IMG/VR virus record: IMGVR_UViG_3300011013_000055
Span: 1-29,932 of that record
Length of the DNA stretch: 29,932 nt
DNA from: a virus
Direction: 5' to 3' (one strand)
Part shown: positions 4,610 through 18,249 of the stretch, in pieces
How the letters are laid out: each line of letters begins with the position of its first letter
Position numbering within the stretch: position 1 is the stretch's first letter
The notes under the pieces: model-generated
Told to the model about the DNA's origin: nothing
Database searches by the model: none
Seen by the model: the letters and a program-made list of their open reading frames with translations, nothing else
Program-made: the position numbers and the translations under genes

Positions 4610-4657
4610 CTCTATAAGGGCACAATAGGAATTTCCCTTGCTACGTAAGGCCTGTAG
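4610..4657 (-). promoter_or_regulatory. Candidate phage RNA polymerase promoter, leftward copy
   Basis: Read on the minus strand, the core is ATTCCTATTGTGCCCTTATA then GAG, with a predicted +1 G at 4612. Seventeen bases ending in TATA directly before G is the geometry of T7-family promoters. The 48-nt block differs by only three bases from the one at 17721-17768, and its last 23 nt recur at 18227-18249 with one change. It begins 5 nt after the RNA polymerase stop codon and faces the gp2.5-like, helicase and exonuclease genes. Confidence 0.72.
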
Positions 4658-4661
4658 CCGT

Positions 4662-7091
4662 TTAGCAGAAGAAATATTGTGACTCCTTAATTTGCTCTAA
4701 ATCCAAACTTCCAGATCTAGGTTCTGACACATTGAAACCATCATCTGAATGCACAAACTGATCCTTCATATTTGCGAATATATCATTGTTATACATTCTG
4801 ATAAATACAGACTTAGTTATCTCCAATAGTTTATCAACATCGTCCGCATGGACAGAGAAGCTATCATGGATTGCCCCAAATGAGGTAATTCCTTCTTCGT
4901 TTAGTTCGTTGATTACTAAGGACATATGTGCTGCATCCATTGAATGAACGTAGTTGGGACTAATCCCAGATACTATTTCATGGATAGCAGGTTTGTCTGT
5001 TACTTCTCGATAGATGATATCGATGCGTTTCTTACAGAAGCTGACTACTGCCCTCTTCTTCTTTGTTGCCCATTTCTCAGACACAACTTCAAACCCACTT
5101 AGAGTCTCCCATTGTGCTGATTTATAGCCAAGTTCTTTAATCCTATACTTTGTTAGTGCTTGCAGGTAGTTCTTAACAGCCACTGGCCCTGAGCATAACG
5201 AGTTATAGGTTTCAACAAGGTCTTTAGCTAATTGATTAGCTACTGTTCTTGTTATGTTGTATTTAGCTGTCATTCCAGCGTCATAGCAATCCGTATAGAT
5301 GATATTAGCAATGCATCTAACTCCTGCATCATATGCTTTGGTCATTGTTCCTCGCTTACTAATACCCTTGCGAATCAACTTCATTGGAATCTTTGAAAGT
5401 AGTAAGCCTAGGTCATTACCAACATTGGCGTTGATTATTCCTTTAGCTACTACAATGTAGAAATCAATAGGCTTCTCTTGAGGCATTAGCCCTACCATAG
5501 ATCCTGCTATTTCATCTTTACTCATAGCTGCTAGATGCTGAGTTCCATTTACAGAACCATCTATAGCTATTGGTATTTGAGAGTAGTAATCTCCTTCTTC
5601 GGCTAAGTATTGAACAACTTCAAAGCATAAGGATAGAAATACCCAAGGCTTCTCAGCATTCATCCAAATCTCTTTAGCTTCTATCGGATCCATTGCTACT
5701 TCTAAGAATATATCTAAGTTATCTTCAGCCCAGTTAATCCTATCCTGTAATGTCATCTTATCTACAGACATGTCTGGCACACCATCAGATTCTAAATCTG
5801 TGATGTAATCGGATTCTGTCCATTTGATATTCTTAAGTTGTTCAACTTTGAAAGTCTCATTAAAGCTGTTGGCTATATGAACAAGTAAGTGTTTGTATCC
5901 TGTGTCTGTCATAAGCTTCTTCTCAGCAAACATCAAATGACCTCTTGCAAGGTCTGATGATTGATAAGAGAAGTATGGATCACGAGCATATACTCTTCCC
6001 CTAAAGTCCAGGAAGCTAGCTAAATAGAACTTATATCCTAACCATCCAGGAGCTTGTTCTGTTCCATGAATAGTATTCAATATAAACTCATCTCTATTTG
6101 TTTGAGATTGAGTCTTTAAACATAGTTGCTTAGCTTGCCATTGCCTATTCTTCTCTTCGTATACTTTTGAGCATTTCTGGATTTGTTTTATTAGTTTTCT
6201 CATCTGGGGACTGTTTGGTTGCAGTTTCTTCTTCTGTTTTTCATACTTAACCATCTGAGCCTCAATAACCTTAACTTGAGAAGAGCTACCTAAGTGAGGT
6301 TCGAATAAAACATCATTGAGATATAGCTCTACATCCTTATATTGTTTATTGTCATCTTCCCTTTTAATGTCACGAGCTTCAAATTTGACGATACAGCCAT
6401 CTTTTGTGTTTAGCCTAATGCTACTATCAATTAATGAAGAAGTAAGCGATTTGGACACTTCCGCTACCTTAGGATTGATTTCCCATTGAACTTGCTCGAT
6501 GTTATTCACAGCTTCCAGATATGGCTTTGTTTCTGATATCTTTGTAGCTCCTTTGATTAACCTATCTTCAACTCCAAGCACTACTCTCTTGTTAGAATCC
6601 CATTTAGGATACTTTCTAGAGGATATGCCTATCCTTTCCTTGACTAAGAACTTGATTCCTTTGAATTTTGATCCTATTTCAAGATGGTAAGGCTGAAACC
6701 TAATACCAACCTTTTTATCATTTTCGATAAGATGTTCATAGGACATGTATTCTTCTCTGTGTAATGAAACATAGTTGTTATCAATTAAGGATTCAACAAT
6801 CAAAGAGCCTAGTTGTATTGATTTGTTGGTTGCTATCTTCTTTAAACCAAGAGTCTTTGCCGTTATCTCTCCAATCTTAACAAGGGAGTTTGTTAAAGGG
6901 ACTTTGCCTTCATGTCTGCAGAAAGAGTAGGTTAGGAAGTTAAAGGTATCGGCTACTATTGAATATGATCTGAAATCATCTCTTAAGCATTTGGCATCCC
7001 TAAACACTTGGACTGCTATTCTTTTGTTGTTCTTATAATCAGTTACAGTTTCTTCAATAGCCCATACTATTTCTTGTATCTTGAATTCCAC
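4662..7091 (-). CDS. Single-subunit (T7-type) DNA-dependent RNA polymerase
   Basis: An 809-residue polymerase (T7 RNAP has 883). It has the DxxGR element as DFRGRVYA (362-369), motif A as AIDGSVNGTQHLAAMSKDE with catalytic D511, motif B as RKGISKRGTMTKAYDAG (574-590), ISPNYVHSMDAAH near 710-722, and motif C as AIHDSFS with catalytic D743. All residues needed for activity appear present. It starts at GTG (7091-7089) after GGGGAGG; the overlapping ATG is out of frame. It ends the early leftward gene run, and its presumed promoter lies directly behind it. Its role is to transcribe the middle and late phage genes. Confidence 0.97.
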   Translation of the reverse strand: MEFKIQEIVWAIEETVTDYKNNKRIAVQVFRDAKCLRDDFRSYSIVADTFNFLTYSFCRHEGKVPLTNSLVKIGEITAKTLGLKKIATNKSIQLGSLIVESLIDNNYVSLHREEYMSYEHLIENDKKVGIRFQPYHLEIGSKFKGIKFLVKERIGISSRKYPKWDSNKRVVLGVEDRLIKGATKISETKPYLEAVNNIEQVQWEINPKVAEVSKSLTSSLIDSSIRLNTKDGCIVKFEARDIKREDDNKQYKDVELYLNDVLFEPHLGSSSQVKVIEAQMVKYEKQKKKLQPNSPQMRKLIKQIQKCSKVYEEKNRQWQAKQLCLKTQSQTNRDEFILNTIHGTEQAPGWLGYKFYLASFLDFRGRVYARDPYFSYQSSDLARGHLMFAEKKLMTDTGYKHLLVHIANSFNETFKVEQLKNIKWTESDYITDLESDGVPDMSVDKMTLQDRINWAEDNLDIFLEVAMDPIEAKEIWMNAEKPWVFLSLCFEVVQYLAEEGDYYSQIPIAIDGSVNGTQHLAAMSKDEIAGSMVGLMPQEKPIDFYIVVAKGIINANVGNDLGLLLSKIPMKLIRKGISKRGTMTKAYDAGVRCIANIIYTDCYDAGMTAKYNITRTVANQLAKDLVETYNSLCSGPVAVKNYLQALTKYRIKELGYKSAQWETLSGFEVVSEKWATKKKRAVVSFCKKRIDIIYREVTDKPAIHEIVSGISPNYVHSMDAAHMSLVINELNEEGITSFGAIHDSFSVHADDVDKLLEITKSVFIRMYNNDIFANMKDQFVHSDDGFNVSEPRSGSLDLEQIKESQYFFC

Positions 7092-7103
7092 ACATCCTCC
7101 CCT

Positions 7104-8060
7104 TTAGTTAGTTTCTATACTTACAAATCCCTCGTCTTTCTCTGTATCCATTCCTGCCATTAGAATATCATTCTGATCTTGTCCTACTCTGTCTGGAATA
7201 AATACCCAAGCCTCAATTCCCTTAACCATTAGTCGCTTTCCTAGCTTGTATGCTGCAGCCTGACCTGTGAAGTTACGGTCATTATCAGCATATATCCATA
7301 CTTGATTAACACCTTCTGGCGGCACGAAGTTCTCTAGGCAACTAGCATTCATTGCAGCAAATGCAGGTAAGCCAGAGTCTTTGTGAGCAGCGTAAGCAGA
7401 TTCAATCCCTTCTGCTATACATATCTTATCTTCGAAGTCAGTATGAAGCCTAATTGCTGCACCAGATATTGTTCCTTTAGGGCTCATTATCTTTCGCGCT
7501 GGGTCTACGTCTGCCTTCTTACCATCTTTAGTATATGTCAAATGGTATGACACACCTTGACCCTTCCAATCTTGGATAAGAGCAACCAATACCTCGTACT
7601 CACCTTGACTCTTCATCTCTTTGTAGAATTTAAGGTTTGCTTGTTTGAGTCCATCAGGGTAAGTATCAAAGCCTCTAGACTCTAAGTATTTAGTAACCGA
7701 TGTGTAGCCCATTAGGTTAGTTGCTTTCTTAGCTACTGCCTTTAGAGCAGGTACTGGATTAAATTTAGGATTGTCTACTGCAATTCCTCCAGTTATTCCA
7801 AGTAGCTTTTTAACTTGTTTAGTTGCTGTTGAGAAACTAATGTCGAAGTATTTCTGAATGAGAGTCCAACCATCTCCATTACCACAACCTCTACAGATGT
7901 ATAAGCCATCGTTGTTATAGTCTGTGAATCTGTATCTATCTTTGCCACCGCATAGTGGACATGGCCCGTTCTTTCCGTTTAAGTACTGCTCTGGTAGTCC
8001 AAGCTGTTTAAGCACTTGAAACCATTTCCCTTTAACTTCTTCAGTTACGTCTTTTCTCAT
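7104..8060 (-). CDS. Zinc/TOPRIM primase (P4 alpha/T7 gp4A-like), no helicase domain
   Basis: Start chosen at the ATG at 8060 (MRKDVTEEV), which has GGGAG upstream; an in-frame TTG lies four codons earlier. The 318-residue product has an N-terminal zinc ribbon CPLCGGKDRYRF (C34, C37) with CRGC (C56, C59), then a TOPRIM domain with E217 in CIAEGIES and D259/D261 in YADNDRN. These are the metal-binding residues of DnaG-type primases, which make RNA primers for lagging-strand synthesis. Unlike T7 gp4, it has no C-terminal RecA-fold helicase. It is followed at 12 nt by the RNA polymerase gene. Confidence 0.88.
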   Translation of the reverse strand: MRKDVTEEVKGKWFQVLKQLGLPEQYLNGKNGPCPLCGGKDRYRFTDYNNDGLYICRGCGNGDGWTLIQKYFDISFSTATKQVKKLLGITGGIAVDNPKFNPVPALKAVAKKATNLMGYTSVTKYLESRGFDTYPDGLKQANLKFYKEMKSQGEYEVLVALIQDWKGQGVSYHLTYTKDGKKADVDPARKIMSPKGTISGAAIRLHTDFEDKICIAEGIESAYAAHKDSGLPAFAAMNASCLENFVPPEGVNQVWIYADNDRNFTGQAAAYKLGKRLMVKGIEAWVFIPDRVGQDQNDILMAGMDTEKDEGFVSIETN

Positions 8061-8091
8061 GTTTTCTCCCAAGTAAGTTTAAATTTTAACA

Positions 8092-8724
8092 TTAGTGCTT
8101 AAGGTACGTTATGTTTTTAATTGACGCATCCCAGCATTTAGTGCAACCCATACATTGACCATTAGTTTCAAATGCTCGGCAAGTTGCTTTGTCTGGATTT
8201 GTTGTGACTGTAGATGTGTGTTTGTACTTTGGTGGTATCCCATCAATCATACTGCCGCTCAAACGTATAATTAAATTCTTAGGAACCTTTCCTTTGAAGT
8301 TCTTGATTAACGAGGATTCCTTTGTTGGAAGCCAATGCTTGATCTCAGGTGTTTGTTTAGCTACTTCAACAATCTTCTTAAGATGATCCATATCTTGAAT
8401 GTCACCACTATCATGATGTCTGAAGAGTCCAGAGTTTACGATTCGTTTCTTGTTCTTTAATATGAATACCCATGCCTTTACCCAACTATCATCAGATATA
8501 AGCCTAGTTCTACGTTGTAGAGCCTTCTTAACATTAGAGAATCTGTAGTTACCTTTACGTGCATAACAATCGTAACAAACAGATCCTTTAATGGTTGATA
8601 GTTTACCTCCTGCCTTACAGTCGAATGCTGATAGGTTGCTACTACATGTGTCTAGTTTAGATGTCTTAGCTACGCCTCCAGTAATCTCTTCAGCTGTCTT
8701 TAATGTTGTTATTTCTATGTTCAT
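8092..8724 (-). CDS. Gp88-like phage protein, cysteine-rich
   Basis: A 210-residue protein I relate to the phage gene product 88 family, whose biochemical function is not established as far as I know. Features supporting this are SKLDTCSSNLSAFDC near the N-terminus, GSVCYDCYARKGNYRF, FRHHDSGDIQD, HWLPTKES, a RLSGSM segment and a C-terminal CRAFETNGQCMGCTKCWD. At least eight cysteines fall in paired or clustered positions, which suggests metal or Fe-S binding. It lies between a strong hairpin and the primase gene. It could be a nucleic-acid or host-takeover enzyme; no reaction can be assigned. Confidence 0.65.
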   Translation of the reverse strand: MNIEITTLKTAEEITGGVAKTSKLDTCSSNLSAFDCKAGGKLSTIKGSVCYDCYARKGNYRFSNVKKALQRRTRLISDDSWVKAWVFILKNKKRIVNSGLFRHHDSGDIQDMDHLKKIVEVAKQTPEIKHWLPTKESSLIKNFKGKVPKNLIIRLSGSMIDGIPPKYKHTSTVTTNPDKATCRAFETNGQCMGCTKCWDASIKNITYLKH

Positions 8725-8757
8725 GTTATTTCCTGTTAGTTATGTATAATGGAAATC

Positions 8758-8819
8758 GATGGATCGTCCCGTGTTCTCCCAAGAACTACTACTCTCCTCA
8801 AGAATAGATTCGATCCATC
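8758..8819 (-). repeat. Long stem-loop before the Gp88-like gene
   Basis: GATGGATCG (8758-8766) pairs perfectly with CGATCCATC (8811-8819), and inside it GTTCT/AGAAC forms a second stem. It fills the gap between the stop of the 63-residue gene and the Gp88-like start. There is no T-run, so it is more likely an RNA processing or leader structure than an intrinsic terminator. Confidence 0.5.
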
Positions 8820-8825
8820 ACCTAA

Positions 8826-9017
8826 TTAATGCAAGAACCCTTGTAGTTCTTCGTAGACAAATTGTGAATCATTATTCAATTCTTCTACTTCTTCTTCTGT
8901 TAACTTAACTCCAGTGTCTTTGAATTCAGCTTCAATTATGAAGGAATCTTCAAACTCTGGGTATTGGTCAGATTGCCAATCCATGTCAATTACCGTTATG
9001 TTATTAGTGTCAGTCAT
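8826..9017 (-). CDS. Acidic hypothetical protein, 63 aa
   Basis: The ATG at 9017 has GGA upstream and overlaps the end of the preceding 29-codon frame. The product is strongly acidic, with about a third of its residues D or E (for example TEEEVEELNNDSQ). Small acidic phage early proteins often bind and inhibit host nucleic-acid enzymes or mimic DNA, but nothing here identifies a target. A strong stem-loop follows its stop. Family not recognised. Confidence 0.65.
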   Translation of the reverse strand: MTDTNNITVIDMDWQSDQYPEFEDSFIIEAEFKDTGVKLTEEEVEELNNDSQFVYEELQGFLH

Positions 9018-9099
9018 TACTCATTCCTTTGTTTATTACTTTAAAACCTGGTTTAGACAGGTTATCCCATTTAATAACTGACGGTGTGATTAATTTCAT
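9010..9099 (-). CDS. Putative 29-residue microprotein
   Basis: ATG at 9099 preceded by GGAGGGTGAGT, one of the better ribosome binding sites in the window. It encodes MKLITPSVIKWDNLSKPGFK followed by VINKGMSND and stops at TGA 9010-9012, overlapping both the upstream 56-residue frame and the downstream 63-residue gene. The chained overlaps are the style of this operon. It is too short to judge by composition; it may be a real microprotein or a coupling leader. Confidence 0.4.
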   Translation of the reverse strand: MKLITPSVIKWDNLSKPGFKVINKGMSND

Positions 9100-9242
9100 A
9101 CTCACCCTCCAGTATCTTATTGGCTAACATCTCAACAACTTCAGTTAACTCCTCACTTAAGTAATCATCTAAGTCCATAACTACCTTACCTTCAATACGT
9201 AATAGGCACAGTAGCACTCTCATTATTTCTTGTTTATTCATT
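9072..9242 (-). CDS. Hypothetical protein, 56 aa
   Basis: ATG at 9242 with GGAG 8 nt upstream encodes MNKQEIMRVLLCLLRIEGKV and continues with an acidic helical stretch (VMDLDDYLSEELTEVVEMLA) to TAA at 9072-9074. It overlaps the end of the 42-residue gene upstream and the start of the 29-residue frame downstream. The composition, with a heptad-like leucine/valine pattern, looks like a small helical protein. Function unknown. Confidence 0.6.
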
Positions 9243-9362
9243 ATTTATTCTCCTTTTGCTAATACTTCTTGTTAATAAGAGTAGCCTAAAGAAATTTAGT
9301 ATAGGTCTACCGATAACACGTTCAACTGGGTATCCATATTTGTCTTTATACTCCAACTTCAT
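9234..9362 (-). CDS. Hypothetical protein, 42 aa
   Basis: ATG at 9362 follows AAGGAGAT. The product begins MKLEYKDKYGYPVERVIGRP, then has a hydrophobic run NFFRLLLL and a basic end (TRSISKRRINNE). Its stop overlaps the start of the 56-residue gene. The hydrophobic segment is too short for a confident membrane span; peripheral membrane association is possible. Family not recognised. Confidence 0.55.
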   Translation of the reverse strand: MKLEYKDKYGYPVERVIGRPILNFFRLLLLTRSISKRRINNE

Positions 9363-9372
9363 TTTTATCTCC

Positions 9373-9606
9373 TTAACAACAATTACATTTACAACAACCA
9401 CAGCTATCAGTTTGTTTAGGTTTAATCCTTAGATTGTTTGCTTTCCAGTTAGGGTTGTCTATATCTCTCCACGTGTACATTTGGCTACTAGCCGCATAAG
9501 AACACTCACAACCTATAACAGGATGCGCCCATTGTTCTTGTATCTTTGCTCCTTCTAACCAAGCTTGAAACATAAATATCCGTTCTCTTTTATCGTTATC
9601 ATTAAT
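9373..9606 (-). CDS. Cysteine-rich hypothetical protein with unusual start
   Basis: The conserved-looking part reads IFMFQAWLEGAKIQEQWAHP, followed by GCECSYAA and a C-terminal SCGCCKCNCC, so metal binding is plausible. The frame is open to 9669, but the part upstream of 9606 is simply the neighbour gene read in another frame. The only well-placed ribosome binding site (AGGAG, 7-nt spacer) points at an ATT codon at 9606-9604, one codon before the upstream gene ends. The next ATG, at 9573, has only a weak site. The start is therefore uncertain: ATT at 9606 or ATG at 9573. Confidence 0.6.
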   Translation of the reverse strand: MNDNDKRERIFMFQAWLEGAKIQEQWAHPVIGCECSYAASSQMYTWRDIDNPNWKANNLRIKPKQTDSCGCCKCNCC

Positions 9607-9823
9607 TTTTATTCTCCTCTGGTTCGTAATACCAGTATTTCTGATTGGTGTTGTAATGGAATGAGCCATAGAAGTTACCTACTAAAGTCTCTTCTCCTAC
9701 CTTCCATTTACCATAAGCGCCATCCATACCTAGGAAGTTCATAACAATAAACCCTCTATCATTATCTCTCATTACTACCTTATCCCCTTTAGGGATTTCA
9801 TGTTGTTTTATTGTCTCTTTCAT
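9602..9823 (-). CDS. Hypothetical protein, 73 aa, beta-rich
   Basis: ATG at 9823 with a purine-rich but weak site (AAAGAAAGATAAGA) and a 26-nt overlap with the zinc-binding gene upstream, so coupling is likely. The sequence (KGDKVVMRDNDRGFIVMNFL, GKWKVGEETLVGNFYGSFHY) alternates hydrophobic and charged residues like a small SH3-like beta barrel. It has no cysteines. Function unknown. Confidence 0.65.
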   Translation of the reverse strand: MKETIKQHEIPKGDKVVMRDNDRGFIVMNFLGMDGAYGKWKVGEETLVGNFYGSFHYNTNQKYWYYEPEENKN

Positions 9824-10046
9824 TCTTATCTTTCTTTGGCTTTAAGATCCAAGTCTTGCCTTTCTCATCATATACTTCTCCATCTGAATCATTCTCTACA
9901 TCCCATTCTGTGTAGAAACAAGTTTCTTCAAGAAATAACCATTCTATTAAGCAGTCTGCATTACAGAATGTATATGTTGATTCCCATAAATGACCAGTAT
10001 TCATACCACAATCACAGTTATGGCATTTCCTTGCGAATAGTTCCAT
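9798..10046 (-). CDS. Small zinc-finger protein, 82 aa
   Basis: The first third carries cysteines in a treble-clef-like arrangement: C8-x2-C11, C13 and C28-x3-C32 (FCNADC). An acidic middle and a lysine-rich tail follow. It starts at ATG 10046 after GGAGG, and the ATG overlaps the upstream stop as TAATG. A nucleic-acid or protein-binding zinc protein used early in infection is likely, but the partner is unknown. Confidence 0.65.
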   Translation of the reverse strand: MELFARKCHNCDCGMNTGHLWESTYTFCNADCLIEWLFLEETCFYTEWDVENDSDGEVYDEKGKTWILKPKKDKNERDNKTT

Positions 10047-10255
10047 TACCTACCTCCTTCAAACATTAACTTATCAGCCATCTCATCTAAAGATTCTCTA
10101 ACATATATAAACTGAGAGTTTATAAGATTAATCTGAGTCTCATTACCTGTTATTCTTAACCATTGGACTTGTTCAGGATTAATCCACATAGAGCCTAAAC
10201 CTCCTGATGCTACTCTGCCCTCGGTATGATCTACACTTTCTATCTTAACTAGCAT
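10046..10255 (-). CDS. Hypothetical protein, 69 aa
   Basis: ATG at 10255 with GGAG upstream; overlaps the previous gene by 11 nt and the next as TAATG. The protein (MLVKIESVDHTEGRVASGGL; SMWINPEQVQWLRI) looks like a small beta-sheet protein with a helical C-terminus (ESLDEMADKLMFEGG). No family recognised. Confidence 0.65.
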   Translation of the reverse strand: MLVKIESVDHTEGRVASGGLGSMWINPEQVQWLRITGNETQINLINSQFIYVRESLDEMADKLMFEGGR

Positions 10256-10445
10256 CTTCTTTACTCCTTATATAATTCAGCACGATCTCTTCCTTTTGTA
10301 ACTCTTCTAGGTGTCCAATCAAAGTTCTTAGAGCAAGTGATGCACCAAATGCCTCAGCACCCGAGTGACTATCATTAACATCTGCTTTGAAGTCATCTTT
10401 AATATCCTTTGCTATTCTCTTGAGTTGTTCAATAGTTATATTCAT
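10245..10445 (-). CDS. Hypothetical helical protein, 66 aa
   Basis: ATG at 10445 with AAGGAT upstream, overlapping the coiled-coil gene by 4 nt (ATGA-type junction). Mostly helical and charged (IEQLKRIAKDIKDDFKADVN; LRTLIGHLEELQKEEIVLNY). No cysteine or membrane segment. Function unknown. Confidence 0.65.
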   Translation of the reverse strand: MNITIEQLKRIAKDIKDDFKADVNDSHSGAEAFGASLALRTLIGHLEELQKEEIVLNYIRSKEDAS

Positions 10446-11509: not shown

Positions 11510-11511
11510 AG

Positions 11512-11951: not shown

Positions 11952-12173
11952 TTAATAGTATTGATTCATCTTAGCACCATGTACTTCAATGAACTTATCA
12001 CTGACATATCTATCTATATCAGTTAATTGGTTTTCCCAACTTCTCCCAAGATTAGCTACCTCTTCATCAACGAATGAGAACCCATCATATAATTTCTGGG
12101 TTAGTATCATTTTGGTTGGAGACTCTTCTACTAACTTGTCCATATAAGCTAATTGTTTCTTATTAAATTTCAT
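11952..12173 (-). CDS. Hypothetical protein, 73 aa
   Basis: ATG at 12173 with only a weak purine-rich site (AAGAAAGAAAT). The sequence KKQLAYMDKLVEESPTKMIL and VDEEVANLGRSWENQLTDID is helical and mildly acidic. No motif or family recognised. Confidence 0.6.
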   Translation of the reverse strand: MKFNKKQLAYMDKLVEESPTKMILTQKLYDGFSFVDEEVANLGRSWENQLTDIDRYVSDKFIEVHGAKMNQYY

Positions 12174-12186
12174 ATTTCTTTCTTGT

Positions 12187-12417
12187 TTAGTTAACGAATG
12201 TCATTGCATCAAACTCTTGTCTTATTGAATGATCCGATTCTGTCCAGTCCTCTATCCGCGCATTGGCATCTTGGAAGACATGCTTAGGTAACCCCTTGAT
12301 ATTAACTTTTGATACCCAGCCTTCAACTAGCGTTTTAGCCTCTTCGAGAGTTTCTGCTTCTACTCCCACCCAATCATGCAGTTGTATTTCATATCTAATT
12401 TCATACATCTTCTTCAT
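12187..12417 (-). CDS. Small VEA-motif protein, 76 aa
   Basis: MKKMYEIRYEIQLHDWVGVE then AETLEEAKTLVEGWV shares the beta-hairpin plus VEA-helix layout with the genes at 11312-11509 and 11512-11688, followed by an acidic C-terminal half (ARIEDWTESDHSIRQEF). ATG at 12417 with GGAG upstream. It is the first gene after one of three repeated leader hairpins (12453-12486), so it may begin a separately regulated transcript segment. Confidence 0.65.
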   Translation of the reverse strand: MKKMYEIRYEIQLHDWVGVEAETLEEAKTLVEGWVSKVNIKGLPKHVFQDANARIEDWTESDHSIRQEFDAMTFVN

Positions 12418-12439
12418 GTTATTACTCCTTTAATATTAA

Positions 12440-12486
12440 CAAAGAATCCAACAATGGACACAACGAGGAACGAGGCCGTGTCCATA
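12440..12486 (-). promoter_or_regulatory. Repeated leader hairpin, copy 1
   Basis: On the minus strand TATGGACACGGC and TTGTGTCCATTGTT flank a GAG-rich loop; ATGGACAC/GTGTCCAT forms a perfect 8-bp stem (12453-12486). Two more copies with the same arms and flanks lie at 17627-17673 and 18704-18742. Each lies 35-60 nt before a leftward gene. Confidence 0.6.
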
Positions 12487-12498
12487 GTGAATCACCTT

Positions 12499-12789
12499 TT
12501 ATTTCTTTAGTTTTAAGAATACAACTCTAGAGTCTTTTGATCCTTTAGTTGTTTCTATTAGATCTTTCTCTTTCAATTCTAGAACAGCTCTTTTAATAGT
12601 AGAGAATGACAAGTTCTTGAAATATGGATGCTCTATGATTTCATTGATATAAGCGTTGTCTGGCTTCCAACCAATGTATGCTAGGACTTTAAAAGCTGTA
12701 CCCGACAAATGATTGAGATTATTTATATCTTGGTAATGCTTAAGTAAGGTCATGTAGTTCCATGCTAGTTTCATATCTTTGTTCTTCAT
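12499..12789 (-). CDS. Winged helix-turn-helix DNA-binding protein, 96 aa
   Basis: The C-terminal half is a typical winged helix: NEIIEHPYFKNLSFSTIKRA then VLELKEKDLIETTKGSKDSR and the wing strand VVFLKLKK. The recognition helix would be SFSTIKRAVLELKEKDLI. The N-terminal helices probably dimerise. This is the clearest transcription-regulator candidate in the early region, comparable to MarR-like or replication-initiator winged helices. ATG at 12789 after GGAG; the repeated leader hairpin follows its stop. Confidence 0.75.
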   Translation of the reverse strand: MKNKDMKLAWNYMTLLKHYQDINNLNHLSGTAFKVLAYIGWKPDNAYINEIIEHPYFKNLSFSTIKRAVLELKEKDLIETTKGSKDSRVVFLKLKK

Positions 12790-12790
12790 T

Positions 12791-12919
12791 CTACTTCTCC
12801 TGTAACAGTTTGATTATTAACGATATTTCATGTGTTTCATCACTACCCAGCCTGTCTGACCAGCTAAGTAATGATGTTAGCTTTCTAATAGCTATATCTC
12901 TGTTAATGTCTTGTTTCAT
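12791..12919 (-). CDS. Hypothetical protein, 42 aa
   Basis: ATG at 12919 with GGAGAT upstream encodes MKQDINRDIAIRKLTSLLSW then SDRLGSDETHEISLIIKLLQ and stops 1 nt before the wHTH gene start. Helical, no cysteine. Its spacing and ribosome binding site support it as real; it may be coupled to the regulator. Function unknown. Confidence 0.55.
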   Translation of the reverse strand: MKQDINRDIAIRKLTSLLSWSDRLGSDETHEISLIIKLLQEK

Positions 12920-13013
12920 TGTTAATCTCCTTGTCGTTGTATTCCATAGATTCTGTTAGTTGATATGCCATCCATGCTGCGGCAATTGCCATGATTACTT
13001 CTACTACATCCAT
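12903..13013 (-). CDS. Small hydrophobic protein, 36 aa
   Basis: ATG at 13013 after AAAGGAGAAAAGAG encodes MDVVEVIMAIAAAWMAYQLT then ESMEYNDKEINNETRH. A hydrophobic N-terminal helix and a polar tail fit a one-pass membrane microprotein. It overlaps both neighbours (10 and 17 nt), like other genes here. Function unknown. Confidence 0.5.
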   Translation of the reverse strand: MDVVEVIMAIAAAWMAYQLTESMEYNDKEINNETRH

Positions 13014-13270
13014 TCTCTTTTCTCCTTTATTGTGTCTAATTTATCTTGTATTGAATCCCAGTAACCTTCCTTTGATTGAAAGTTAATAATTCCTTGAGCT
13101 TCGTCTGGGAATGCTTTAACTAGTCGTTTCTGATTGCTGGTGTCAGCATGTGCAATACAGTCGGCTAGTTTGCTCATAAAGCCCCCTAGTCTTCTGTATT
13201 GCCAATCAACTACGAATTGTTCGCTTTTATTTAGCTTTATTTCTTTGTTTAGTTCTATTACGTTAGTCAT
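13004..13270 (-). CDS. Conserved-type phage protein, 88 aa
   Basis: Contains EQFVVDWQYRRLGGFMSKLA followed by DCIAHADTSNQKRLVKAFPD, a pattern I recognise as recurring in phage hypothetical proteins, with no established function. Predominantly helical with two tryptophans. ATG at 13270 after GGGAG; overlaps the upstream gene by 8 nt. Confidence 0.7.
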   Translation of the reverse strand: MTNVIELNKEIKLNKSEQFVVDWQYRRLGGFMSKLADCIAHADTSNQKRLVKAFPDEAQGIINFQSKEGYWDSIQDKLDTIKEKREWM

Positions 13271-13592
13271 AGTTGTACTCCCTACTTGTTACTGTTAATG
13301 TTGAACAATCAATGACATACGTGCCATTGTTTCCGTTGTCGTAGTCCATTTGACCTACAATTCCTACACCAAGTGATAAGTTTCCTGGAATCTCATCGTT
13401 AATAACGCCAATCAGCCTTGCTTTGGCGTATTCTGAGTCTCCTTCCCTGCCTTTCATTACTTTTCGTGTTTTCTTTAAGTAATATTCTATGCTGCTTGGT
13501 GATCCGTTCCAATGTAAGTAAATACCCACTGCACATTCACTAAACTTCTGTGTAGGCAGTTCTCTTAAACATAATACTGCTCTGTTTCCCAT
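13263..13592 (-). CDS. Conserved-type phage protein, 109 aa
   Basis: Begins MGNRAVLCL, then VGIYLHWNGSPSSIEYYLKK, a segment EYAKARLIGVIN and LSLGVGIVGQMDYDNGNNGT. This GNRAV / YLHWNGS / SLGVG arrangement recurs in proteins from unrelated phages, again without known function. The beta-rich fold with glycine turns looks enzymatic or ligand-binding. ATG at 13592 after AAGGAG. Confidence 0.72.
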   Translation of the reverse strand: MGNRAVLCLRELPTQKFSECAVGIYLHWNGSPSSIEYYLKKTRKVMKGREGDSEYAKARLIGVINDEIPGNLSLGVGIVGQMDYDNGNNGTYVIDCSTLTVTSREYNYD

Positions 13593-13607
13593 GTTGTTTC
13601 TCCTTGT

Positions 13608-14000
13608 TTATAGTTCTGCCTCAAAGTAGCAATCAGTTTCAGGATTGTCCTTTAAGAATTTCTGAATCTGTTCTCCAAGTGCTAGTCTTGCATACCATTC
13701 AAGTTGTCTTCTAATAGCATCTTGGTTGATTACTTCATCAAACCTTTCTTTCCAGTGCTTGATTATCATTTCATCGTTATAACCGTTGTTTTCTTCAAAG
13801 AATTGATCAAGCCTCTCTTTCCAGTTGTTTAGTTCCTTAAGGCATTCTTTGATTCCTTCTTCTACGTTGTTATCGTCACGGTCTACCATGTAGTTAATGT
13901 AGTTGTTGTTTTCTAGAGCTCCAAAGAACTCTCCGTCTTGAGATGATTGAACACCAAACCAGAACTTTCCTTCGATGTCGCCATTGTAATATCTACCCAT
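13608..14000 (-). CDS. Conserved-type phage protein, 130 aa
   Basis: Start chosen at ATG 14000 (MGRYYNGDIEGKFWFGVQSS) because AAGGAG precedes it; nine further codons are open upstream. The MGRYYxGDIEGKFWFGVQ opening is a familiar one in phage hypothetical proteins. A helical acidic body follows (LKELNNWKERLDQFFEENNG), ending in DCYFEAEL. Function unknown. Confidence 0.72.
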   Translation of the reverse strand: MGRYYNGDIEGKFWFGVQSSQDGEFFGALENNNYINYMVDRDDNNVEEGIKECLKELNNWKERLDQFFEENNGYNDEMIIKHWKERFDEVINQDAIRRQLEWYARLALGEQIQKFLKDNPETDCYFEAEL

Positions 14001-14193
14001 GTTGTTTCTCCTTATTAACGTATTCATCTAGTTGGTCGAATACTGCTTGTTTACTTCCTTTAAATCCAAACTCTTTCTTTACTTGGGCATATACGCTTTG
14101 TTTAGAATGCTTCATACCCATTACTTCTAAGCCTAGTGCAGCTCTTAGTGCTATAAGTCTAAATAGATTTGTGTTTGTAATCATTGTTCCCAT
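13993..14193 (-). CDS. Hypothetical protein, 66 aa
   Basis: ATG at 14193 after AAAGGAG; overlaps the next gene by 8 nt. The sequence NLFRLIALRAALGLEVMGMK then SVYAQVKKEFGFKGSKQAVF is basic and helical, and reads like a small nucleic-acid-binding protein, a pattern seen in other phage hypotheticals. Not assigned. Confidence 0.65.
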   Translation of the reverse strand: MGTMITNTNLFRLIALRAALGLEVMGMKHSKQSVYAQVKKEFGFKGSKQAVFDQLDEYVNKEKQHG

Positions 14194-14209
14194 GTTATTA
14201 CTCCTTTAA

Positions 14210-14554
14210 TTAAAGACCTTCTGAGTCTCTTTCTCTATATTCAGTTTCCTTTGCAGAAAACTCCTTGTCTTCAGGCGAAAGACGATGGTCGCCTAAATAG
14301 AACTCCATCTTTGCTTCTTCAGCTATATCTCCTATATTGTCTCCCATTGAATCCCATAGGAAGTCAATTAGGGAATTAGTAATGAAATGATGGATATCAA
14401 CAATATCCTTTTCTTCTTCTAGAAGCTCAGGATCTAATCCCATGTGTTCATCTACATAGCCTTTAAGAGCTCTAGGCATTACAGATTTAAAGCGTCCATA
14501 GGTATTGTCTATCTGAGATTGTAGTTTGTTGATTAGCTCGTTATTTGTTTCCAT
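14210..14554 (-). CDS. Acidic hypothetical protein, 114 aa
   Basis: ATG at 14554 after GGAG. Contains helical DIVDIHHFITNSLIDFLWDS then GDIAEEAKMEFYLGDHRLSP. Strongly acidic and rich in D/E toward the end. Its last part resembles that of the adjacent 63-residue gene (AKMEFYLG here, AKLELMYG there), hinting at a shared motif. Function unknown. Confidence 0.65.
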   Translation of the reverse strand: METNNELINKLQSQIDNTYGRFKSVMPRALKGYVDEHMGLDPELLEEEKDIVDIHHFITNSLIDFLWDSMGDNIGDIAEEAKMEFYLGDHRLSPEDKEFSAKETEYRERDSEGL

Positions 14555-14732
14555 ACATTAACTCCAGTTTTGCATCCGTCATGTATCTATCTACATCTTG
14601 GATTAAGGTTTCATAATCTCTAAGCTGTTCTAACTTATCTTGAACATCTTGAGGTAGTTGATCCCATCCTAGATAGTCTTGAAAGTATCTATTCAGGATT
14701 TGCTTTTGAGGCTTACTTAGTTTTCTTGCCAT
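14541..14732 (-). CDS. Hypothetical protein, 63 aa
   Basis: ATG at 14732 after GGAG; overlaps the next gene by 14 nt and lies over the end of the membrane microprotein. Basic N-terminus (MARKLSKPQKQILNRYFQDY), then charged helices ending AKLELMYGNK. Function unknown. Confidence 0.65.
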   Translation of the reverse strand: MARKLSKPQKQILNRYFQDYLGWDQLPQDVQDKLEQLRDYETLIQDVDRYMTDAKLELMYGNK

Positions 14733-14826
14733 TACGTTTCTCCATGTCTATATGTGCATAAATAAGGAAGGCCAACCAAAGCATTGACCCTATTATTAAT
14801 AATTGAGCTATTAATTGTTTATCCAT
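14713..14826 (-). CDS. Membrane microprotein, 37 aa
   Basis: ATG at 14826, 2 nt after the TAG of the coiled-coil gene and without its own ribosome binding site, so it would be made by re-initiation. The peptide MDKQLIAQLLIIGSMLWLAF continues LIYAHIDMEKRNGKKTK: one transmembrane helix with a basic cytoplasmic-type tail. It overlaps the following gene by 20 nt. Function unknown. Confidence 0.5.
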   Translation of the reverse strand: MDKQLIAQLLIIGSMLWLAFLIYAHIDMEKRNGKKTK

Positions 14827-14828
14827 AG

Positions 14829-15227
14829 CTATAAGAGTCTTGAGACTATTGCTTGGATAACTTCATCGATAAGATCTTCTTTATCAATCTTAAATTCTTT
14901 TAGCTTTTCTTTAACTTCATCTTTCATCTCCTTTATTTCTTGTTTCATGTCGTATTCTAACTCTTCAATCTTGTCCTCTACCTGGTCATAGATAGTGTCG
15001 TCAATGTAGGATTTGTCAGGTGTATCTTGTGTTGCCTTATCAACCATATCTGCAATCATAGAATCTATAGTCTGATTCTCGTATATAGATTGTTTGTTTC
15101 TAAGAGAAGCAATTGTTTCATCTCTATGTTCGATGGTTTGTTCAAGTCTACGTACTTGATCTCTTAATAGATCTGCTTGAATTACTTCATTACCTAGGAT
15201 TGTTTCAATTTCTTTATTTGTTTCCAT
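14829..15227 (-). CDS. Coiled-coil protein, 132 aa
   Basis: ATG at 15227 after AAAGGAG. Two heptad-rich stretches are visible: residues 15-50 (DQVRRLEQTIEHRDETIASL) and 80-120 (EELEYDMKQEIKEMKDEVKE). Acidic, no cysteine. Oligomerisation or a long-rod structure is likely; its role in the early region is unknown. Confidence 0.7.
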   Translation of the reverse strand: METNKEIETILGNEVIQADLLRDQVRRLEQTIEHRDETIASLRNKQSIYENQTIDSMIADMVDKATQDTPDKSYIDDTIYDQVEDKIEELEYDMKQEIKEMKDEVKEKLKEFKIDKEDLIDEVIQAIVSRLL

Positions 15228-15239
15228 GTTATTACTCCT

Positions 15240-15437
15240 TTATATTGTTATGATTAGTATGATTAAAGCCCATACAATAGCGGTTACTGCCAAATAAGGT
15301 AGCTTGACGTTTCTATGAGCAGGGTTTAGTCCTATTCTGAAACATCTCACACCCCAAATACCTATTGATAGCATTACACCGACAAGAGCGGTTACTATTG
15401 TCCAATGAAAGCTCACGTATATATTTGCTAAATCCAT
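15240..15437 (-). CDS. Two-pass membrane protein, 65 aa
   Basis: Two hydrophobic segments are clear: IVTALVGVMLSIGIWGV (about 14-30) and YLAVTAIVWALIILIITI (about 48-65), separated by a basic loop (RCFRIGLNPAHRNVK). ATG at 15437 after AAGGAG. A small inner-membrane protein; it might alter the host membrane or exclude other phages, but the sequence shows only topology. Confidence 0.7.
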   Translation of the reverse strand: MDLANIYVSFHWTIVTALVGVMLSIGIWGVRCFRIGLNPAHRNVKLPYLAVTAIVWALIILIITI

Positions 15438-15440
15438 GCT

Positions 15441-15614
15441 TTATTTCTCCTTTGTTGTTGATTTACTGTCTAACCAGTCTAAGAATCTCCATATTGCCTC
15501 TTCTGAGGGCTCTGGTTTCTGTGCTGCTTGTTCTATATCATCTTGAGAAGGACTTCGGTCTTGTTCGATATTGTCCTCCTGCATTTCTATATCTAGGTTT
15601 GAAAAGTAACCCAT
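15441..15614 (-). CDS. Acidic hypothetical protein, 57 aa
   Basis: ATG at 15614 after AAAGGAG encodes MGYFSNLDIEMQEDNIEQDR, then an acidic, proline-containing linker and an amphipathic tail EEAIWRFLDWLDSKSTTKEK. It stops just upstream of the membrane-protein gene, whose ribosome binding site overlaps its end. Probably unstructured for most of its length. Function unknown. Confidence 0.62.
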   Translation of the reverse strand: MGYFSNLDIEMQEDNIEQDRSPSQDDIEQAAQKPEPSEEAIWRFLDWLDSKSTTKEK

Positions 15615-15615
15615 G

Positions 15616-15978
15616 TTATTTCTCCTTTAATTGTTCAGTTAGTTTTTCTAACTCAGTTTCTACCATTGGTTGTGTCCAAACAAGACCTTCAAGTTGATGC
15701 TTTGTGTAAAACTCTTTCAATGAGTCTTTTACTAAAGTGAGATCTACAGCGTCGCCACCATGAATACAATCAAATCCAATAAACCAGTCATCTTCGATTC
15801 TATCTGTGAATGTAACACCTCCATGAACTGTTATTGATTCAAATTGAGGATCTTCATAGTAAAGTTCATATAGATTATGGTCTTTAGGTATCTTTACGTA
15901 TCCACATCTATGTCCAGACTCAACTGCAACGACCATTGTTTCAAAGTCGTTGTACGTGTTGCTGCTTTCGATATTCAT
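15616..15978 (-). CDS. Conserved-type phage protein, 120 aa
   Basis: Contains GHRCGYVKIPKDHNLYELYY, then ITVHGGVTFTDRIEDDWFIG and FDCIHGGDAVDL. The GYV-IP-xxHP-like, VHGGVTF and FDC-HGGD blocks form a pattern I know from phage and bacterial hypothetical proteins; the histidines and aspartates could be a metal or active site. ATG at 15978 after AAAGGAG. No reaction assigned. Confidence 0.7.
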   Translation of the reverse strand: MNIESSNTYNDFETMVVAVESGHRCGYVKIPKDHNLYELYYEDPQFESITVHGGVTFTDRIEDDWFIGFDCIHGGDAVDLTLVKDSLKEFYTKHQLEGLVWTQPMVETELEKLTEQLKEK

Positions 15979-15990
15979 GTTATTTCTCCT

Positions 15991-16263
15991 TTAATTGTTT
16001 TCTAGATCCTTAACAATCGTGTCCCATATCCAGCATCTGAATTGAGAAGGTTTGTATTGGAATTCTAGGTTTGTTTCAAGTTCTTCTTGGAAGTCCCACA
16101 TAAGCATTTGCATGTCTGCATGGTTGTTATGTAGCCATTTAGTTACTTTGATTTGAATAGCTGTTCTTGTTTCTGCTTCATGCTTTGCCATGATATCTCC
16201 CAAGTTAATTGTATCGTTGATATGTGTTGTAGGTACTATTGTACCTGGTTTATTCTTAACCAT
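15991..16263 (-). CDS. Hypothetical protein, 90 aa
   Basis: Start chosen at ATG 16263 (MVKNKPGTIVPTTHINDTIN) after AAGGAG; the open frame to 16380 is the upstream gene read in another frame. Helical C-terminal half rich in aromatic residues (ADMQMLMWDFQEELETNLEF; FRCWIWDTIVKDLENN). Function unknown. Confidence 0.65.
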   Translation of the reverse strand: MVKNKPGTIVPTTHINDTINLGDIMAKHEAETRTAIQIKVTKWLHNNHADMQMLMWDFQEELETNLEFQYKPSQFRCWIWDTIVKDLENN

Positions 16264-16267
16264 GTTA

Positions 16268-16561
16268 TTACTCCTTGTTAAATGGTCTTGCTTCTTTGTT
16301 GATGCCTTTCCTATTGTTGTAGGTTCTGGCTCTACGTAATTCGCCTCCAGTCTTAAGGCAAGATGTTGTTCCTGCATCAAGTTCTCTTAGTGCGCTCATA
16401 GGTAGAACTATGGAATCATCTCCCACAATTTCTACATCATCATTGATTGTTGCAACTAGGCAAACATCTCCCCAATAATGTAAGTTAAACGTTTCTCCAT
16501 CCCAGTTAGCATTTGCTACTAGTTCGGTAGATCCGTCTTCCATTTGTACTGTAAACAGCAT
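16268..16561 (-). CDS. Hypothetical protein, 97 aa
   Basis: ATG at 16561 after AAGGAG. The first half is beta-rich and acidic (MLFTVQMEDGSTELVANANW; YWGDVCLVATINDDVEIVGD), the second basic (GELRRARTYNNRKGINKEAR). It is directly downstream of the SSB gene, with a short GCAA-loop hairpin between them. Function unknown. Confidence 0.65.
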   Translation of the reverse strand: MLFTVQMEDGSTELVANANWDGETFNLHYWGDVCLVATINDDVEIVGDDSIVLPMSALRELDAGTTSCLKTGGELRRARTYNNRKGINKEARPFNKE

Positions 16562-16583
16562 AATATTCTCCTTAAAGTCCTAA

Positions 16584-16606
16584 ACAGACATTCTTGCGAA
16601 TGCCTG
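16584..16606 (-). repeat. Small GNRA-loop hairpin after SSB
   Basis: On the minus strand CATTC-GCAA-GAATG forms a 5-bp stem with a stable GCAA tetraloop, between the SSB stop and the next gene. There is no T-run; it may protect or process the RNA. Confidence 0.3.
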
Positions 16607-16620
16607 CTATGAAAGGATAT

Positions 16621-17040
16621 TTAGAACGGCATATCCACAACAGGCTGTTGAGATTGTCCTGAAGCTTGCTCTTGATTGTTATCTTGAGCTTGCTGTACAG
16701 GAGCTTTATCTAACATTTGTAAGATGCCTTGATAACCTGCAACAACAACTTCAGTCACGTATTGTGTGATGTTGTCCTTGTTTACAAAGCTACGATGGTT
16801 GAGTTTGCCTTCTACATACACTTTAGAGCCTTTCTTAAGGTAAGTGTTAGCAATATTAGCAACATTACCTCTGAATACTACTCGGTGTACTTGATGAGCT
16901 TCAACCTTGTTTCCTTGTGTGTCTTTGTAAGATTCATCTGTGTAGATGCTTACGTTTGTTAATGAACCGCCATCCTGGAATACTTTGATTTCTGGATCTG
17001 CGCCTAAATTACCTACTAGAGTTACTTTATTAATTGACAT
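16621..17040 (-). CDS. ssb: Bacterial-type single-stranded DNA-binding protein
   Basis: A 139-residue OB-fold SSB: MSINKVTLVGNLGADPEIKV opening, VHRVVFRGNVANIANTYLKK GSKVYVEGKL in the core, then a glutamine-rich linker and the tail VVDMPF. The tail matches the bacterial DDIPF tip that recruits replication proteins, and the length is that of a normal SSB. It would coat ssDNA at the origin nearby and could engage host partners through the tail. A strong inverted repeat just upstream (17060-17104) may control it. The phage also has a gp2.5-like protein, so it carries two ssDNA-binding proteins. Confidence 0.93.
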   Translation of the reverse strand: MSINKVTLVGNLGADPEIKVFQDGGSLTNVSIYTDESYKDTQGNKVEAHQVHRVVFRGNVANIANTYLKKGSKVYVEGKLNHRSFVNKDNITQYVTEVVVAGYQGILQMLDKAPVQQAQDNNQEQASGQSQQPVVDMPF

Positions 17041-17059
17041 GTTAGTCTCCTAATTGATT

Positions 17060-17104
17060 GCAATATGCACACTGTCGAGGCTATCCTCTCTCGATACATA
17101 TTGC
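17060..17104 (-). promoter_or_regulatory. Inverted repeat upstream of ssb
   Basis: GCAATATG (17060-17067) pairs perfectly with CATATTGC (17097-17104), with an inner stem TCGAG/CTCGA (17075-17079/17090-17094). It ends 20 nt before the ssb ATG and 10 nt before its TTAGGAG site, where an RNA hairpin or protein-bound operator could control SSB synthesis. Confidence 0.5.
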
Positions 17105-17425
17105 TGGTTATAAAGATGAAGCGTGATTGCTTCGTAATACACACTGGTTTAGACAATGCATATTAGGAAGGAAAAGCAGTTTGGGTACTTAATGTACAGT
17201 CATGCTTAGGACTAGTGGGACAGTCTGCGTGAGCCTTTCGGTCTCTATGTCATCTGTGTGACAGAGGCAGTCCCTGTAGAGGAGGCAGTTTTAATTCATA
17301 CCTAGGAATATCAGAGTGTCGGCTATTGATTCACTAAAGGATTCGCCACATCCACCAGTCACTATTTAAGATGCATAATGCGGAACTGTGTGAATTACAC
17401 TATGCAAATGATTGGCACTACTAAC
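17105..17425. other. Gene-free structured stretch
   Basis: No open frame with a ribosome binding site is seen on either strand. The stretch holds GAAGC/GCTTC (17118-17133), and a bulged hairpin CTCT-at-GTCA / TGACAGAG (17243-17266) with outer pairing of CTGC (17225-17228) to GCAG (17267-17270). GAGGCAGT/GAGGCAGTT is repeated nearby (about 17264-17290). It may be an untranslated leader of the early leftward transcript or a non-coding RNA. Confidence 0.4.
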
Positions 17426-17593
17426 TTACTCGTTGCCTATTAATGTATTTAGACATATGATTGTTGCTTGTTTATCGTTAGTATGGAATAGTTCCTCATG
17501 CAAACGAAACAAAGGAGAGTCTTCATGATCTCCAAGTTTGATTAGTTTGTAGTAACAAAGTTTATAAGATATTTTAGATAATAGTTTGTACAC
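17426..17593 (-). CDS. Early hypothetical protein, 55 aa, GTG start
   Basis: The supported start is GTG at 17593 (reading M-YKLLSKISYKLCYYKLIKL), 6 nt after AAGGAG; an in-frame GTG at 17626 has no site. Basic, tyrosine/leucine-rich N-terminal half, then FRLHEELFHTNDKQATIICL. It is preceded by copy 2 of the repeated leader hairpin and is one of the first leftward genes beyond the origin region. Function unknown. Confidence 0.55.
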   Translation of the reverse strand: MYKLLSKISYKLCYYKLIKLGDHEDSPLFRLHEELFHTNDKQATIICLNTLIGNE

Positions 17594-17626
17594 GATAATA
17601 CTCCTTGGTTTAGTTAAAGAATTCAC

Positions 17627-17673
17627 ACATTGGACACAATCGAGCTCGCTCTTTAGCTCGTGCCGTGTCCATA
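17627..17673 (-). promoter_or_regulatory. Repeated leader hairpin, copy 2
   Basis: TGGACAC/GTGTCCA arms enclose a second stem CGAGCT/AGCTCG. On the minus strand the flanks read TATGGACACGGC before and TTGTGTCCAATGTGTGAATT after, closely matching copies at 12440-12486 and 18704-18742. It lies between the DnaA boxes and the 55-residue early gene. Confidence 0.6.
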
Positions 17674-17719
17674 GTTATCCACATAGTTATCCACAGGTTT
17701 TACAGAGTTGTGGATAACT
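17673..17719. other. Three DnaA boxes, candidate replication origin
   Basis: The 11-mer AGTTATCCACA occurs three times without mismatch: 17673-17683 and 17685-17695 on the plus strand, 12 bp apart, and 17709-17719 on the minus strand. TTATCCACA is the strong consensus box for the bacterial initiator DnaA. Together with the iterons at 18103-18162 and the gene divergence here, this marks a likely origin that recruits host DnaA. Confidence 0.75.
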
Positions 17720-17720
17720 C

Positions 17721-17768
17721 CTACAGCCCTTACGTACCAAGGGAAATTCCTATTGTGTCCTTATAGAG
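17721..17768 (+). promoter_or_regulatory. Candidate phage RNA polymerase promoter, rightward copy 1
   Basis: The core reads CCTATTGTGTCCTTATA then GAGAGA, predicted +1 at 17766. The 48-nt block from CTACAG onward matches the leftward copy at 4610-4657 with three differences. It fires rightward from beside the DnaA boxes, through the structured region and the iterons, toward the terminase genes. Such a transcript could also prime or melt the origin, as T7 phi1.1 promoters do. Confidence 0.72.
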
Positions 17769-17782
17769 AGAAATAAGGACGG

Positions 17783-17844
17783 ACTATGACGAGCTGAGAT
17801 GGGCACAGCTTCGAGTCCCTAATGCCCACATTAGAGATCATAGT
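17783..17844 (+). ncRNA. Candidate structured RNA behind the promoter
   Basis: Seventeen nt past the predicted +1, ACTATGA (17783-17789) pairs perfectly with TCATAGT (17838-17844). Inside, TGGGCA/TGCCCA forms a second stem, and CGA-GCTG with CAGC-TTCG offers an alternative fold. The 62-nt element has no ribosome binding site or reading frame. It may be a small RNA, a primer RNA or a protein-binding DNA cruciform. Confidence 0.4.
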
Positions 17845-17875
17845 AGAATCAGTAGAGATGCTATGGTGAGCTTAA

Positions 17876-17990
17876 TGCTAACTAAGTAGATTTCGATTAC
17901 GACCCACATAAGACTCAGAGATGAGTTAAGTGAATCATAGAGGGAAAGTATAGAATCTGTGAAGATTCAATATAGTCTGCTTAGTTAGCA
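17876..17990. repeat. Long-range 15-bp inverted repeat
   Basis: TGCTAACTAAGTAGA (17876-17890) pairs with TCTGCTTAGTTAGCA (17976-17990): 14 Watson-Crick pairs and one G-T wobble. A smaller stem GAATC/GATTC (17953-17968) sits inside. It lies between the DnaA boxes and the iterons and is part of the putative origin structure. Confidence 0.55.
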
Positions 17991-18102
17991 ATGAGCTTAC
18001 CTAAGTGAATATAGTTGGTAGGATTCAATGAGACCAGTGATGTATCTATGATGGTCAATGATGAATCTATAGTGATGCTTCGAGTGCTACATCTAGTGCC
18101 AC

Positions 18103-18162
18103 TAAATGTGACAAATAGCTTATAAATGTGACAAATAGCTTATAAATGTGACAAATAGCTTA
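18103..18162. repeat. Three tandem 20-bp iterons
   Basis: The unit TAAATGTGACAAATAGCTTA is repeated three times head to tail without a mismatch or spacer. About two helical turns per unit is the classic iteron spacing for a replication initiator or other origin-binding protein. A downstream AT-rich element was not obvious. Confidence 0.75.
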
Positions 18163-18226
18163 ATACCACTCTGACACCCCTAAGATGCTCTCTAGAACAC
18201 TACAGGAACAGCTAGCTTGCTTAATA

Positions 18227-18249
18227 ATTCCTATTGTGTCCTTATAGAG
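18227..18249 (+). promoter_or_regulatory. Candidate phage RNA polymerase promoter, rightward copy 2
   Basis: All 23 core bases (ATTCCTATTGTGTCCTTATA then GAG) match the copy at 17746-17768; the conserved upstream 25 nt of the other two copies is absent. Predicted +1 at 18247. It fires toward the terminase operon, but first across the leftward gene 18356-18661 in antisense. Confidence 0.7.

Follow-up and report, generated by a model that had tools for sequence, protein, structure and literature searches.

Repeated sites in an uncultivated marine phage group as probable promoters of its T7-like RNA polymerase

Are the copies of a 23-nt sequence dispersed in a phage genome the promoters of the RNA polymerase (RNAP) that the same genome encodes? 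The question arises in the 29,932-base virus record IMGVR_UViG_3300011013_000055, from an uncultivated marine virus of bacteria; the whole of this record is called the window below. It holds three copies of the sequence as well as a gene (4662–7091, minus strand) for a T7-like single-subunit RNAP of 809 amino acids (aa), the proposed reader of the copies. We consider it very probable, from sequence comparison across the phage group, that the three sites are T7-type promoters of this enzyme.

The three sites and the 809-aa polymerase

The consensus ATTCCTATTGTG(T or C)CCTTATA/GAG, where the slash precedes the predicted start, has three copies in the window. The 23-mer ATTCCTATTGTGTCCTTATAGAG is exact at 17746–17768 and 18227–18249, both on the plus strand; the minus-strand copy at 4610–4632, ATTCCTATTGTGCCCTTATAGAG, differs from these by a single change, at −8. 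We refer to the sites as P1 (4610–4632, minus; ATTCCTATTGTGCCCTTATA/GAG), P2 (17746–17768, plus; ATTCCTATTGTGTCCTTATA/GAG) and P3 (18227–18249, plus; the same 23-mer as P2). The 17-mers within them occupy 4629–4613, 17749–17765 and 18230–18246, and the predicted +1 G falls at 4612, 17766 and 18247, respectively. A preliminary description of this DNA had given the same core, strands, single change and start coordinates, all of which were reproduced exactly. Scanning the window with up to three mismatches returned these sites and nothing else, and 100 dinucleotide shuffles returned none. The same three sites are the sole matches at up to two mismatches in G001, a near-identical 50-kb IMG/VR contig whose RNAP is 99.75% identical; one extra site at three mismatches there looks like chance, because a reversed control pattern also matches once.

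The genome encodes a catalytically intact RNAP of the T7 superfamily. The 809-aa protein matches Pfam RNA_pol (4e-69) and PHROG 414 (9e-112), and the equivalents of T7 residues D537, K631, Y639, H784 and D812 are invariant in all 22 RNAPs of the group examined. In a predicted model, the counterpart of the T7 specificity loop forms a long beta-hairpin (674–701), and the predicted fold matches the T7 RNAP–promoter complex 1cez (E 5e-15) and mitochondrial RNAPs.

The sites resemble T7, T3 and SP6 promoters in having a phage-encoded reader, a −17 to +6 layout, a TATA/G block for melting and start, a variable specificity block at about −12 to −8, and a first promoter that closely follows the RNAP gene (T7 phi1.1A lies 26 nt behind gene 1). 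Like T7-type promoters, they are dispersed copies of ∼20 nt that end in TATA/G and point toward operons: 4612 faces genes for a gp2.5-like single-stranded DNA (ssDNA)-binding protein, a helicase and a YqaJ exonuclease, and 17766 and 18247 face virion genes. They are not T7 promoters proper, since −12 to −8 reads TGTGT (TGTGC at P1) versus CGACT in the T7 promoter TAATACGACTCACTATAGGG. A further difference is copy number, with two to three copies per genome here; T7 carries many. The sequence had not been recognized as a known promoter in the preliminary description, and the exact 17-mer had no match in the literature searched, which did not include a catalogue of T7-like promoter specificities from phage genomes. 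A sigma70 reading of the region was rejected: between 16.5 and 19.0 kb there are four sigma70-like sites versus 6.8 expected in shuffles, and none at P2 or P3.

Promoter variants, the specificity loop and competing explanations

Relatives were fetched via RNAP and TerL, and contigs were read whole where possible. For 13 related IMG/VR contigs we compared cognate and non-cognate matches of the 19-mer spanning −18 to +1. The 19-mer found near the end of the RNAP gene recurs at 18–19 of 19 positions in the late leader of its own genome, where the next best match on the same contig (13–15 of 19) is at background level. Non-cognate genomes with a clearly different variant match at 14–17 of 19 positions at most; G001 and G002 carry one variant, differing by one base. 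The recurrence holds in nearly every contig that contains both ends, and the recurring sequence is lineage-specific.

In this way about 10 paired promoter variants were found across the group. Written from −17 to −1, they are CCTATTGTGTCCTTATA in the window clade, CCTATGTTGCCCTTATA in clade B (G005, G020), CCTAAGAGCTCCTTATA in G022, TCGACCACTCCCTTATA in clade C (G007, G014), TCGTCCTACGGGTTATA in G024, TTGATTGACCCCCTATA in G026, TTGTTCCCAACCCTATA in G012, TCGACCATCACCCTATA in G037, TCTAAGTAGCCCTTATA in G040 and TCTAAGCCACCCTTATA in G036. Unpaired variants, for which the contig yielded the RNAP-side site alone, are present in G021, G009, G025, G034, G035, G038, G030 and G031. No TATAG pair was detected in G029, a contig with both RNAP and first late gene; its late leader may be cut, or its site may depart from the TATAG form.

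Positions −17 to −8 turn over between lineages; −4 to +1 (TATA/G) is invariant across all variants. Any one genome has the same bases in all its copies between −18 and +3, the exceptions being position −8 in the window clade and a single base in G040; the flanks are at background from −23 outward and from +4, with AT-richness at −22 to −19 partly kept. The predicted start lies 19–55 nt past the RNAP stop codon in most lineages (50 nt at P1). Only clades A and B showed a second late site of P3 type. The full set per genome in these contigs appears to be three promoters in those two clades and two in the others. One species has a fourth, divergent, early-facing copy, CCTGTTGTGTTCTTATA/GAG (L062:1684, minus; L065:6738, minus), which is degenerate in the window.

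The recognition block changes together with the specificity loop of the RNAP. Where promoters match, the loop is more conserved than the rest of the protein (88% versus 82% identity between the window and G002), and where promoters differ it is less conserved (50% versus 67% between the window and G005). With the rest-of-protein distance removed, loop and promoter distances remain correlated (partial Mantel r 0.29; reached in 0 of 2000 permutations). The proposal of the preliminary description, a T7-family promoter read by the phage's own RNAP, is thus supported by the −17 to +3 layout with TATA/G, by concerted divergence, by intact catalytic residues and by a loop that varies with the promoter.

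Several observations weigh against this assignment. The Mantel correlation leaves shared ancestry partly in, and it is correlative. Overall quality of the structure model is low (mean pLDDT 62.6), and no residue-by-residue alignment of the loop with that of T7 is certain; pairing of single loop residues with T7 746/748/756/758 was dropped because two alignments place the loop differently. In G012 and G026 the first site lies 700–800 nt behind the RNAP gene, P1 differs from P2 and P3 at −8, the start sites are predictions, and a second RNAP is present in the same genomes.

That second enzyme (1039 aa in G001) could itself be the reader of the sites. It is divergent, keeps motifs A, B and C of single-subunit RNAPs, is present throughout the group and likewise diverges by lineage. 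We regard this alternative as improbable: in most lineages P1 immediately follows the 809-aa gene, the site layout is that of T7 promoters, it is the loop of the 809-aa enzyme that tracks promoter variation, and between clades A and B, with promoters that differ at 3 of 17 positions, the second RNAP shares only ∼28% identity. Moreover, it resembles the N4 virion RNAP (PHROG 2206), whose promoters are hairpins (PMC4496689).

Less probable still is a repeat that binds a phage regulator or replication initiator, or that forms part of an origin, rather than marking a transcription start. Three perfect DnaA boxes (TTATCCACA; 17675–17717) stand 50–90 nt before the P2 start and mark a possible origin, and T7 has early phage promoters that serve its replication origin as well. 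Clade A relatives whose contigs extend over this region retain the boxes, but clades B, C and D lack them near P2 and still have the promoter sites; nor would the TATA/G core, the fixed orientation toward operons and the covariation with the RNAP loop be expected of an operator. A recent duplication or gene-conversion repeat devoid of promoter function would account for the 57 nt that P1 and P2 share at 89% in the window. This idea, to which we assign next to no probability, is already contradicted: P3 shares just 25 nt, and in other lineages cores that are identical and have changed in concert sit in random flanks.

We therefore retain the reading of P1–P3 as promoters of the 809-aa enzyme and, with high confidence, describe them as a putative new family of T7 type that would work as T7-type promoters do. 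The specificity loop and the upstream-recognition part of the RNAP would read −17 to −8, TATA at −4 to −1 would melt, and transcription would start at G. From P1 the genes for ssDNA-binding protein, helicase and exonuclease would be transcribed, and from P2 and P3 the late region, through a leader of 0.6–1.1 kb into terminase, portal and capsid genes. Sequence, positions, orientation and concerted divergence of the sites, intact catalytic residues and RNA covariation (see below) are directly established; initiation by the 809-aa enzyme at these bases, its contacts and its timing we infer.

A precedent for such finds comes from metagenome- or database-derived single-subunit RNAPs, namely EM1 RNAP (PMC9596486) and KpnP, Ro45Iw and CD23823 (PMC12272871): their promoters were first recognized as repeated motifs, and in vitro activity was then demonstrated. 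Each of these is an individual enzyme, and some have T7-like promoters, whereas here a whole group with ∼10 paired promoter variants is known, from sequence alone. With these and several unpaired variants from one phage group, changes in loop and promoter can be compared in parallel, so that the way in which single-subunit RNAPs change promoter specificity and stay functional becomes directly testable. The series also supplies candidate orthogonal polymerase–promoter pairs.

The structured RNA under P2

The preliminary description had placed one promoter directly behind the polymerase gene, driving replication genes, and two before the virion operon. The first part agrees with the position and direction of P1. 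The late sites are not simply two virion-operon promoters: P2, the putative first late promoter, is separated by 1.1 kb from the nearest virion gene downstream, and its transcript would contain a structured leader RNA first; P3 would be the second late promoter. Between P2 and P3 neither strand has an open reading frame (ORF) of at least 60 aa.

In the window, the leader RNA occupies 17867–18000 (plus), with a closing stem of 20+ bp (17867–17890 with 17976–18000) around two inner hairpins, CCCA at 17903–17906 and GGGAAAG at 17942–17948. Across the group the closing stem has 23–31 bp, its sequence wholly different between clades and its pairing kept. Intact leaders have stem scores of 23–28 versus a maximum of 16 in 200 shuffles; one locus cut by a contig end scores 13 versus 12. 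The interior contains a small hairpin, a CCC–GGG pairing that encloses a second hairpin and an A-rich segment, the invariant GGGAAAG, and a third hairpin. Compensatory changes occur in 16 of the 23 pairs of the consensus. The plus strand is taken to be the RNA because G–U pairs are frequent in that orientation.

Among 70 sources, a covariance model of the leader RNA matched 36 times, also in genomes that were not used in training (G037, G026, G020, G022 and G024). The RNA is present in most late leaders (loci include L157, L149, L182, L289 and L281), starting ∼100–700 nt behind the promoter where the promoter is known; in clade C it comes immediately before the first late gene. The model did not detect it in G036, G040, G033 or Roseobacter phage CRP-7, blastn against isolates gave nothing convincing, and Rfam had no match above the gathering threshold, just sub-threshold ones to miRNA- or sRNA-like hairpins. 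A tRNA or tmRNA at the T-arm-like GCTTCGAGTCCC in the leader was rejected, as ARAGORN finds none. With low confidence, we suggest that the RNA may act in late-leader control or be linked to packaging.

The P2 transcript would carry near its 5′ end a GGGCA...TGCCC hairpin (17801–17827, plus) that is kept in clades A and B; a search of all viral contigs with the GGGCAC hairpin pattern gave matches mostly in other contigs. The late leader also has a tandem array of three 20-nt units, TAAATGTGACAAATAGCTTA, at 18103–18162, a conserved 101-aa gene (18356–18661, minus) antisense to the P2 and P3 transcripts and without a PHROG match, and a 32-nt duplication (18808–18875) ahead of the first late gene.

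A second polymerase, early-strand hairpins and gene surroundings

Less expected than the promoters are two other parts of this system, the leader RNA and the second polymerase. In G001 the second, very divergent single-subunit RNAP (1039 aa) is encoded at G001:32109–35225, minus (L029:12106–15225), at the virion-operon end and outside the window. It matches RNAP and N4 virion RNAP profiles (PHROG 2206, 1e-8). Its homologues are ∼1000–1700 aa long, and the 14 contigs aligned keep the catalytic motifs of the T7 superfamily: A, TEIDGxxNG; B, RxxxKxPxMIFxYG; C, FDG; and a THSxD-like motif. A tblastn search among 50,697 isolate phage records gave no match.

Genomes of the window clade carry, on the early strand only, three to four copies of the inverted repeat ATGGACAC...GTGTCCAwTGTGTGAATTC, most of them just ahead of a ribosome-binding site and start codon. 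One G001 copy, TGGACAC-GTT-GTGTCCA, pairs over 7 bp around a loop of 3 nt; the loops of other copies are longer. The window has three copies, all on the minus strand: ATGGACAC..GTGTCCAATGTGTGAATTC at 17619–17672, a candidate early promoter before a 66-aa early ORF; a second at 18700–18741, before the 101-aa minus-strand gene; and a third with five mismatches at 12443–12485, before a 76-aa ORF (12187–12417). A scan of all clades was suggestive in the window clade, G005 and G020 and elsewhere gave no clean consensus. The hairpin motif shares TTGTGTCC with the T7-type promoter of clade A.

The hairpins that the virion RNAP of N4 reads stand before early genes and have a 3-base loop (PMC4496689), and because of this and the early-strand hairpins an N4-like packaged RNAP running early transcription is plausible here, with the hairpin motifs as its candidate promoters. 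Such a programme would be consistent with the finding that sigma70-like sites are not enriched at the early start. N4 is also alike in having two T7-superfamily phage polymerases, one encoded among virion genes. However, its RNAPII is a heterodimer for middle genes and its late genes use the host sigma70 RNAP (PMC4496689), whereas in the marine group one T7-like enzyme seems to serve both replication and virion genes, and the second RNAP has ∼1000–1700 aa. A tentative overall scheme, which we hold to be possible though somewhat less than even in likelihood, would have the group use two phage single-subunit RNAPs and little or no host RNAP. A packaged hairpin-reader would act early, the T7-like enzyme would transcribe replication and virion genes from two to three promoters, and the late promoter would first make an undescribed structured RNA (CCCA...GGGAAAG junction, 20–30 bp stem) with a function of its own, e.g. 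in packaging or late control. The promoters would explain how transcription is laid out in this uncultivated marine group, and they point to a new structured phage RNA and a second polymerase.

The closest isolate is CRP-7 (MK613349), with RNAP 27–32%, portal 44%, major capsid protein (MCP) 38% and TerL 43% identical. None of the promoter variants of clades A–D was found in it, and the CRP-7 paper makes no mention of promoters (PMC6918029). CRP-7 has a five-copy intergenic motif of its own, TATAGTCCMYTATTAAAAGG (L066:2025, 7146, 14763 (+), 38281 (−) and L067 record position 57231 (−)), one copy of which is directly before the CRP-7 RNAP gene; it is possibly a separate promoter family. Membership of the marine group in Autographiviridae was rejected: unlike in T7, portal and MCP are of SU10 type, and the best isolate match of the RNAP is 32%.

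The P1 operon of the window (643–4436, minus) comprises the genes for the gp2.5-like protein (3882–4436), a DEAD-type helicase (2140–3693) and a YqaJ/RecE exonuclease (643–1455); in relatives the gene order behind the P1 site is unchanged. Upstream of the RNAP gene the minus strand carries many small early genes, a single-stranded DNA-binding protein (SSB) gene (16621–17040), a GP88-type gene and a primase gene (7104–8072). The late operon under P2 and P3 (18893–27332, plus), assigned by Pfam matches to SU10 portal and MCP and by TerL and structural PHROGs, begins with a small late gene (18893–19309), TerL (19474–21108) and portal (21121–23373), and continues with a scaffold-like gene (24076–25137), MCP (25167–26183) and a tail-related gene (26607–27332). 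Downstream of the latter, a 773-aa gene contains about 10 repeats with a 36-nt period (27771–28488).

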